A DNA stretch of 64,000 nucleotides, from contig JAPLUR010000045.1 of NCBI GenBank assembly GCA_026397505.1, forward strand, positions 1 through 64,000, given 5' to 3'. This DNA comes from Candidatus Zixiibacteriota bacterium. GTDB lineage: Bacteria > Zixibacteria > MSB-5A5 > GN15 > PGXB01. The stretch's first letter is position 1, and every line of letters starts with the position of its first letter. The translations under genes and the position numbers were made by a program. The notes below the pieces were generated by a model, which was not told where the DNA came from, searched no databases, and saw nothing but the letters and a program-made list of their open reading frames with translations. Of the stretch, positions 60,950-64,000 are shown piece after piece.

Positions 60950-61327
60950 CTATTTCATGTGCTTGGCAACCAGCTTGGTCATCTCAAACATGCTGACCTG
61001 CTTTTTGCCGCCGAAGACCGCTTTCAGGTTGTCATCTGCGTTGATCATTCTCCTGTTGACACTATCCTGCAGCTTGTTCTTCTTGATATACTCCCAGAGC
61101 TTCTTGGTGATTTCCGTGCGGGGAATCGGTTTCAACCCCACCACGGCCCCAAGCATCTCATCGGGCTGCATCGGCCTCATGAAAGCTGGATTCGGTTTGC
61201 GAGCTGTTTTCTTCTTAGGAGCCGCTTTCTTCTTCACCACTTTCTTTTTGGCCGGCATTTTGGCGGCTTTTTTCTTAACCGGCGCTTTTTTCTGGGCCGG
61301 CTTCTTAGCCGCTTTCTTAACTGCCAT
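60950..61327 (-). CDS. SWIB/MDM2-domain protein with Lys/Ala-rich histone-H1-like tail
   Basis: 125 residues from the ATG at 61327, with AGGAGG five bases upstream. Residues 2-45 are a Lys/Ala/Pro-rich basic tail (KKAAKKPAQKKAPVKKK pattern), like histone H1 or bacterial HU extensions. Residues about 48-125 are a SWIB domain (AFMRPMQPDEMLGAVVG, IPRTEITKKLWEYIKKN, LQDSVNRRMINADDNLKAVF). SWIB domains are best known in eukaryotic SWI/SNF and in Chlamydia; in bacteria they are thought to be DNA-associated. It likely binds DNA non-specifically. A 23-residue relative lies just upstream. Confidence 0.9.
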   Translation of the reverse strand: MAVKKAAKKPAQKKAPVKKKAAKMPAKKKVVKKKAAPKKKTARKPNPAFMRPMQPDEMLGAVVGLKPIPRTEITKKLWEYIKKNKLQDSVNRRMINADDNLKAVFGGKKQVSMFEMTKLVAKHMK

Positions 61328-61395
61328 CAATTCCTCCTTTTAACCTTCAGAGGGGATTTCGTGGTTTCTCAGATCGTCATTGGATCTGAAACTCG

Positions 61396-61825: not shown

Positions 61826-62544
61826 CAGTTTTCACCGCCGGGGGCCGCCGACTCTAATTGACGCCATTTGGCCCTGATAGCCTCGTCACAGATTTTTACC
61901 GCCGAATCGACATCAATATTGGTGGTATTGACGACCAGATCATAGGCGCTCGAATCATTGATATCACGTCGGAAAGTGGTTCTGATAAACTCGGTCTGCG
62001 TCCGGTCATTCCTGATAATTTCATCTCTGGCGTCATTGGGAGACAACTTCTCATATCGCTGCAAATTTTCGATCCGGCAGGGCAGCGCCGCTATCGTGCG
62101 CAGGCTGAAACGCCGTTCCGGCGGCAGAATGAAGTTGGCCCCGCGACCGATAACTAACACTCCACCCAGTTCCGACATGGAAAGTATCACTTTGACCAGA
62201 CTCTTGGTGTAATCAGGCTGAGTGACATACTGTCCTTTAAACAACCCCTCCAGCCAGAATTCGACCGGATTGGGAACCTTTCCATCCAGCGCTTGAATTA
62301 TTTTCTTCTGATAACCGGCCGACTTGCATATTTCATCGACGATCTCACGACGGAGGATTCGATAATCAAGTTGTTTTGCCAACTTCTCGGCTATGAGAAG
62401 GCCCAGGCTGCCTTTCTGCCGACTAAACGTCACAATCGGACGAATTCGCAAACCGGCCCCCGATTTTCCTTCAGCTTCCCGCTGAAGCCGTTCTTTTTCC
62501 CAGACCTTAAACTGGCTGGCAATAATCGCCTCGATAGAGCGCAT
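61825..62544 (-). CDS. cytidylate-kinase-like family protein
   Basis: 239 residues from the ATG at 62544, which has AGGAG four bases before it; a longer reading adds 17 unlikely residues. The N-terminal helix is followed by a P-loop-like segment IVTFSRQKGSLGLLIAEKLA, in which G-S-L-G replaces the usual GxxGxGK[S/T] and the canonical Lys is missing. RRREIVDEICK-like text (ILRREIVDEICKSAG) and VLVIGRGANFILP are hallmarks of the cytidylate kinase-like (Cytidylate_kin2) family. The substrate is unknown and need not be CMP. Confidence 0.8.
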   Translation of the reverse strand: MRSIEAIIASQFKVWEKERLQREAEGKSGAGLRIRPIVTFSRQKGSLGLLIAEKLAKQLDYRILRREIVDEICKSAGYQKKIIQALDGKVPNPVEFWLEGLFKGQYVTQPDYTKSLVKVILSMSELGGVLVIGRGANFILPPERRFSLRTIAALPCRIENLQRYEKLSPNDARDEIIRNDRTQTEFIRTTFRRDINDSSAYDLVVNTTNIDVDSAVKICDEAIRAKWRQLESAAPGGEN

Positions 62545-62706
62545 ATATCTCCTGTGAATTACATTTAAATAGCATCTTTTTATTATGTCTGTCAATCCAA
62601 TTATGGCTCACCATTAGAACTTGCCTCCAATTCATTACCTGCTGAAGTGACGGTTCCAGCAAAAATCCCTTTATTTTTCCCCATTCTGGTATATATTGGG
62701 GGCGAA

Positions 62707-64000
62707 ATGGTCAACTATGGAATCGACATAGAGGATAATTCTCTCTTTGAATCCCTGGGGTTCAAATGCGGGCTGGAAATCCATCAGCAAGTAGCCACCG
62801 AAAAGAAACTGTTCTGCCATTGTCCGGTCGGCCTGACCAAGAGGAAATATGATGCTGAGATTCTGCGCCATATGCGCCCGACCCTGTCGGAACTGGGCGA
62901 GTATGACGGCACCGCCCTGATGGAATTCAAGACCAAGAAGGAAGTCATCTACCGTCTCTATCGAGATCGCACCTGCACTTACGAGATGGATGATACCCCG
63001 CCCTTTCTGGTCAATCAGCAGGCGGTCGATTTCGCTATTCAACTGGCCCTTCTTTTCAATTGCAGAATTGTCGATGAGATTCATGTCATAAGAAAACAGT
63101 ATCTGGACGGTTCCATCCCGACCGGTTTCCAGAGAACCATGATTATCGGGGTTGACGGCTGGATGCCGTATAAGGACCGAAAAATCACTGTCAGTCAGGT
63201 CAATCTGGAAGAAGAGGCCTGCCGTGAGGTCTCCGATATCGGGCATCGGATTACTTATGCCACCGACCGCCTCTCGATACCGCTGGTTGAAATTATTACC
63301 GGATCCGATATGCGAAATCCGACCGAGGCGGCTGAGGTTTGCCGACTGCTGGGAAATTCAATGAAGATTACCGGGCTGGTGCGGCGCGGCATCGGCACCG
63401 TTCGGCAGGATGTCAATGTTTCCATCACCGGCGGTACCCGGGTCGAGATCAAAGGGGTCTATAAAGTCGGCAATATCAAACCTCTGACTGCTATCGAGGC
63501 GCTTCGCCAGAAGGGATTGCTGGAATTAAAGAAGCTCTTCCCGAGCCGCTTTGGGACAGCAGAAAAGATTGCCTATGCCGAAAGCAATCTTACCCCCATG
63601 TTCAGCGGCACTAACAATCTAATCGGCCATCGGCTCGAAAGTGATACGCCCCTAAAAGTGGTCGGTCTCTATCTGCCGGATATGGCCGACATCATCAATT
63701 TCCCCCTGCAGCCAAACTGGGATTTCGGTTCGGAATTGGGCGGAAGAGTGCGGGTCATCGCCTGTATCGACAGCAAACCCAACCTCTTTTTCTATTCCCG
63801 GAGAGATAAATATGACATTCCGGAGCAAATCTGGAATGAAATCCGCGGCATATGGAATATCGGTTCCAATGACGATATCGTGGTTATCTGCGGGCCATCC
63901 GCCGATGTTGTCACGGCCATAAACGAAATCAAGATTCGGATATCGGAACTGGCGGGCGGTGTAGTCAATGAAACCCGCCAGGATATGAAAGACGGCACCA
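62707..64000 (+). CDS. gatE: Glu-tRNA(Gln) amidotransferase subunit E, archaeal type (3' end beyond window)
   Basis: The first 431 residues, running off the window. GatE, with GatD, converts Glu-tRNA(Gln) to Gln-tRNA(Gln) and is otherwise known from archaea, whereas bacteria use GatCAB. LGFKCGLEIHQQV, EKKLFCHCPVGL, GFQRTMIIGVDGWM, VNLEEEACREV, RLSIPLVEIITGSDM and VRRGIGTVRQDVNVSI are GatB/GatE kinase motifs. The stretch from about residue 315 (LKVVGLYLPDMADI, FGSELGGRVRVIACIDSKP) is the AspRS-type GAD insertion that separates GatE from GatB, and VVNETRQDMKDGT follows it. The expected total is near 620-640 residues. The ATG is preceded by GGGGG, not a standard GGAGG. Confidence 0.92.
   Translation, partial: MVNYGIDIEDNSLFESLGFKCGLEIHQQVATEKKLFCHCPVGLTKRKYDAEILRHMRPTLSELGEYDGTALMEFKTKKEVIYRLYRDRTCTYEMDDTPPFLVNQQAVDFAIQLALLFNCRIVDEIHVIRKQYLDGSIPTGFQRTMIIGVDGWMPYKDRKITVSQVNLEEEACREVSDIGHRITYATDRLSIPLVEIITGSDMRNPTEAAEVCRLLGNSMKITGLVRRGIGTVRQDVNVSITGGTRVEIKGVYKVGNIKPLTAIEALRQKGLLELKKLFPSRFGTAEKIAYAESNLTPMFSGTNNLIGHRLESDTPLKVVGLYLPDMADIINFPLQPNWDFGSELGGRVRVIACIDSKPNLFFYSRRDKYDIPEQIWNEIRGIWNIGSNDDIVVICGPSADVVTAINEIKIRISELAGGVVNETRQDMKDGT

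Follow-up and report, generated by a model that had tools for sequence, protein, structure and literature searches.

Does the tRNA-dependent amidotransferase GatDE have a place in bacteria, and what would it do there? The question is raised by a gene that runs off the end of the window, that is, the 64,000-nucleotide stretch of a Candidatus Zixiibacteriota contig analysed here. In GatDE, GatD frees ammonia, and GatE activates and amidates the Glu carried by tRNA(Gln). A 2022 review (PMC9499178) describes GatDE as now found in archaea only, and archaea as having no GlnRS. The archaeal enzyme is reported there to read the D-loop and A1:U72 of tRNA(Gln), which has A73; in the same review this specificity explains why archaea never acquired GlnRS, and bacteria may descend from ancestors that lacked GatDE. 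A 2014 paper knew of no bacterium with both routes to Gln-tRNA, and a survey of GluRS, GlnRS and gatCAB in bacteria (PMC3927822) does not mention GatDE. No report of bacterial GatDE was found among open-access papers, to which the search was confined, with subscription journals outside its scope. The sequences themselves are recognised by annotation pipelines, since NCBI models already name such proteins GatE.

The gene (gatE, plus strand) starts with an ATG at 62707, with an alternative GTG start at 62647. Its first 431 codons (62707-64000) lie inside the window and the stop is at 64620 on the same contig (G000:C45, 98,118 bases), giving a product of 637 amino acids counted from the ATG. The initial annotation had called it GatE and not GatB, and curated cut-offs, nearest structures and motifs bear this out. 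The protein passes both NCBI curated GatE equivalog models (NF003107, 465.5 bits with a cut-off of 456; TIGR00134, 387.8 with a cut-off of 319.55), and among solved structures it comes closest to two GatE chains, 2d6f_C and 1zq1_C, with E about 1e-80 and alignments that span the insertion described below. Tried as GatB, it fails at 124.7 bits against a cut-off of 338, and the true gatB of the genome is on C41.

All the domain features lie on the plus strand. The first part of the GatB/GatE cradle (kinase/transamidase) domain occupies approximately 62746-63565 (Pfam PF02934, 169.6 bits, its first stretch mapping to 62764-63546), and carries GLEIHQQ, RKQYLDGSIPTGFQRT, LEEEACRE and RVEIKG in columns conserved among 95 bacterial GatEs. 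An AspRS-type (GAD) insertion within the cradle, also part of the initial annotation, is supported at approximately 63565-63960 by alignment to 2d6f_C and 1zq1_C and by a structural model, with no separate Pfam GAD match called in the window protein. The model, an AlphaFold2 prediction for the GatE of a close relative (L035, 71% identical in the best segment; pLDDT 87, pTM 0.82), resembles most closely the GatE structures 1zq1_C and 2d6f, with some 510-550 columns matched, and then GatB; weak matches to bacterial-type AspRS rank after these and fit an AspRS-type insertion. The ETR-x-x-x-x-D-G-T step is likewise present in the sequence itself, as ETRQDMKDGT (63970-63999). Beyond the window, up to 64620, come the rest of the cradle, a helical domain and the YqeY-like tail that the initial annotation expected. 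The tail is diverged: the GatE profile match ends at 556/622 in the window protein and reaches 615-627 in GatEs from other bacterial phyla. In the L035 model the tail is helical, and its mean conservation of only 0.29 makes it the least conserved domain. About 100 columns are invariant in an alignment of 50 relatives. In M. thermautotrophicus numbering, the residues E13, H15, E157, E158, E184, E235 and K237, presumed to be catalytic, show at least 95% conservation across the 95 bacterial sequences.

That the gene sits in a bacterial chromosome, as first proposed, is confirmed by its native composition and by a neighbourhood shared with related genomes. A cytidylate kinase-like gene, gatE and a glycosyltransferase follow one another in this order also in G089 (a single-contig genome), in G084 and at L035-L037; the GC content is 0.519 for gatE and 0.535 for gatD, compared with 0.516 +/- 0.024 for the window genes; and this genome's gatD shares its two neighbour clusters with G089 and G090. 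An assembly chimera or contaminant near 62.6 kb, raised at the outset as an archaeal join, might draw credence from an archaeal-type GatE piece that the same assembly holds at a contig end (C118:1-about 480). That piece is, however, a different one (GC 0.402, with the archaeal signature), whereas the window gatE lies inside a 98-kb contig and its synteny is found in independent genomes, including the single-contig one. A join at this point is contradicted by synteny and native GC and is hardly conceivable. The fragment itself (G000:C118:1-480, L136; GC 0.40 versus 0.495) runs into a bacterial truB region; it is a chimera or contaminant and distinct from the window gene. Upstream of gatE, both on the minus strand, are the cytidylate kinase-like protein (61828-62595; PF13189, 112.9 bits), conserved beside gatE in the window's family, and a small protein (60953-61330) whose N-terminal part is Lys/Ala-rich and histone-H1-like and which also has a SWIB/MDM2 domain (Pfam SWIB, 95.6 bits).

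Relatives of the protein are spread widely. A scan with one genome per species returned 263, and the names in the best 80 of these, which are the depositors' own, include Zixibacteria, Ignavibacteria, Aminicenantes, Latescibacteria, KSB1, Calditrichia, WOR-3, Elusimicrobia, Fermentibacteria, Krumholzibacteria and others. Among 95 full bacterial GatEs from many phyla, 13 residues fixed in bacteria differ from all three archaeal references; 84 of the 95 have all 13 and the other 11 have 12, while the archaeal references (n=3) have none, a signature defined against only these three references and one fragment. The bacterial motif RKQYLDGSIPTGFQRT stands where the archaeal form is DGSN, and the bacteria-specific substitutions sit beside catalytic motifs. 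GatD has 41 sites fixed differently from archaea (as judged from two archaeal references); it retains the catalytic Thr, Thr, Asp and Lys, and 199 of its columns are at least 95% conserved. Distances in GatE and GatD are correlated (Mantel r 0.78, 58 loci). In the tree, a split with support 0.994 sets the archaeal sequences, together with the C118 piece, apart from every bacterial GatE; rooted with one GatB outgroup, the tree gives the bacterial clade a support of 0.119 and does not place the root. A search of viral contigs for GatE relatives found none, and a search of plasmids yielded a single copy, on an archaeal megaplasmid; a frame change in the record interrupts it, and it served as a reference in two pieces joined by X.

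The bacterial GatDE branch is very probably old and separate. The earlier suggestion of a transfer of GatDE from an archaeon into this lineage is unsupported, the gene belonging to a separate bacterial branch common to many phyla. A recent horizontal gain would accord with the description of GatDE as archaeal only (PMC9499178), yet the window GatE has 0/13 archaeal states, the archaeal sequences split from all 95 bacterial GatEs at the support given above, and both the GC content of gatE and the neighbourhood common to G089, G084 and L035-L037 are those of a resident gene, making such a gain very improbable.

The partner subunit is encoded in the same genome, at C120:35205-36407, as an asparaginase fold with GatD_N (TIGR02153, 522 bits; PF18195 and PF00710), and its score passes the equivalog cut-off. 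The initial annotation had looked for gatD near gatE, which is not so in this genome, where the genes are on C120 and C45; in most other lineages gatD is a direct neighbour. Among the 66 loci from other phyla that offer enough room, gatD is downstream of gatE, adjacent or close by and in the same orientation, in 57; it is elsewhere in the locus in 1 and absent from 8; among recurring operon partners of gatE that might hint at another pathway, only gatD was found. That the window gene is GatE, partnered by GatD and belonging to a genuine bacterial genome, is almost certain. The gatCAB and glnS genes, which were also to be sought, are both present: GlnRS is on C43 (763.7 bits), and GatCAB is complete, with GatA just upstream of GatB on C41 and GatC on C79. 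AsnRS is on C77 (635.6 bits). Of tRNA(Gln) there are two genes, UUG and CUG, both read from the sequence as U1-A72 with G73; tRNA(Asn) has U1-A72 as well. An unusual tRNA(Gln) as partner for GatDE was considered and set aside, both genes looking ordinary bacterial. A tRNA-like gene given a two-base anticodon by ARAGORN (G000:C16:2479-2550, L186) adjoins the end of an apparent other tRNA.

The company that GatDE keeps was surveyed in 133 genomes of the phylum, which the nearest named relatives place as candidate division Zixibacteria, with profile results transcribed by hand and clear contig-end fragments counted, and co-occurrence was counted in the 84 that are at least 90% complete. GatD and GatE are both found in 56 of these, GatE only in 1, GatD only in 3 and neither in 24, so that 56 of 57 genomes with GatE have GatD. 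GlnRS is present in 53/56 genomes with GatDE versus 10/24 without; counted by genus with one genome each, a partial correction for shared ancestry, the figures are 40/43 versus 8/14 (Fisher p 0.0045). GatB is present in 28/56 versus 16/24. Thirteen genomes have GatB without GlnRS and without GatDE, and six genera have GatCAB alone, lacking both, as expected if GatCAB there does what GlnRS and GatDE do elsewhere. Seven well-assembled genomes with GlnRS have neither amidotransferase, and clean-up of mischarged tRNA would therefore not be obligatory. In 50 GatE genomes of other lineages, GlnRS is found in 40 (39 above cut-off and one fragment) and GatB above cut-off in 22. Three genomes have GatE with GlnRS and GatB not found above cut-off, namely G121 in the phylum survey and G154 (L067) and G172 (L094) among the other lineages; if complete, these genomes may, like those of archaea, rely on GatDE to provide Gln-tRNA. 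As to gene position, glnS lies near gatE, the two pointing apart, in G130 (C28) and G131 (C39), and it adjoins gltX in many other genomes.

On these findings, the window protein would serve as GatE in a GatDE heterodimer, a tRNA-dependent amidotransferase from a bacterial branch that is distinct and old. Since the catalytic positions are kept, the chemistry predicted from sequence is very likely the same as that of known GatDE: GatD would release ammonia from Gln or Asn, and GatE would phosphorylate the side-chain carboxylate of the tRNA-attached amino acid and then amidate it. Two things make Glu-tRNA(Gln) the most likely acceptor, and probably the one used: every member scores as GatE, and the recurrent genomic companion is GlnRS. 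GluRS may load Glu onto a share of the tRNA(Gln), which GatDE would then amidate before Gln codons are misread. GlnRS already charges tRNA(Gln) in the window's genome and in most of its relatives, and for this reason GatDE is proposed, at about even odds, to serve as a second or clean-up route beside it. The GluRS residue equivalent to T. thermophilus Arg358 neither supports nor refutes clean-up, since it is Arg in 50/50 genomes, among them genomes in which tRNA(Gln) has to be mischarged. Counting against this reading are the U1-A72 and G73 of tRNA(Gln) in the window's genome, as compared with the A1:U72, D-loop and A73 reported for archaea (PMC9499178), and the low conservation of the tRNA-binding tail. 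With 13 GatE and 41 GatD sites fixed differently from the archaeal references, the choice of substrate may have shifted, and a changed role for GatDE is plausible given its co-occurrence with GlnRS.

One such change would have bacterial GatDE make Asn on tRNA, by amidating Asp-tRNA(Asn) formed by a relaxed AspRS. GatCAB provides the precedent in Bdellovibrio, Deinococcus and Thermus, which have AsnRS and GlnRS (PMC4206432). AsnRS is above cut-off in 111 of the 133 Zixibacteria genomes, with some match in all, and as it already covers Asn-tRNA an amidotransferase would be free for Asn biosynthesis; the U1-A72 of the window genome's tRNA(Asn) and the bacteria-specific substitutions beside the catalytic motifs are also consistent with this role. 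Every member nevertheless scores best as GatE, for which the described archaeal role is amidation of Glu-tRNA(Gln), and an Asn-making enzyme has no reason to track GlnRS. Synthesis of Asn is therefore unlikely to be the function. A shade less likely again is recruitment to an acceptor unconnected with the supply of Gln- or Asn-tRNA, for example a small molecule or a different glutamylated tRNA. The usual redundancy of GatDE with GlnRS, GatCAB or both would be in keeping with it, as would the branch-specific fixed residues in both subunits and a weakly conserved tRNA-binding tail; against it, the only conserved neighbour is gatD, the recurring genomic associate GlnRS is a translation gene, and in the three genomes with neither GlnRS nor GatB above cut-off GatE may be the sole route to Gln-tRNA.

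These results bear on how GatDE has been viewed. A deep bacterial GatDE coexisting with GlnRS contradicts the archaea-only distribution and puts in question the argument that GatDE and GlnRS are incompatible. It offers material for testing whether the last common ancestor already had GatDE, and raises the question of why an indirect Gln-tRNA enzyme is retained where a direct one exists. A bolder reading, held at somewhat below even odds, is that GatDE is an old enzyme of both domains whose bacterial branch persisted across phyla and was re-tuned beside GlnRS; these would then be the first bacteria with two Gln-tRNA routes, or their GatDE would have changed its acceptor.

In comparison with known systems, archaeal GatDE (1zq1 from Pyrococcus abyssi and 2d6f from Methanothermobacter) is the best structural and sequence match to the bacterial enzyme, with the same subunits, domain order and catalytic residues. 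The bacterial branch differs in being separate, with its fixed differences in both subunits (13 in GatE, 41 in GatD), and in coexisting with GlnRS and a tRNA(Gln) having U1-A72 and G73, whereas archaea are without GlnRS (PMC9499178). Bacterial GatCAB has the cradle, helical and YqeY domains of GatB in common with GatE, but GatE has the AspRS-type insertion and an asparaginase-like GatD partner in place of GatA and GatC. Deinococcus, Thermus and Bdellovibrio likewise keep an indirect route beside direct charging (PMC4206432), although there the enzyme is GatCAB and the product Asn, while here it is GatDE, sometimes with GatCAB in addition.
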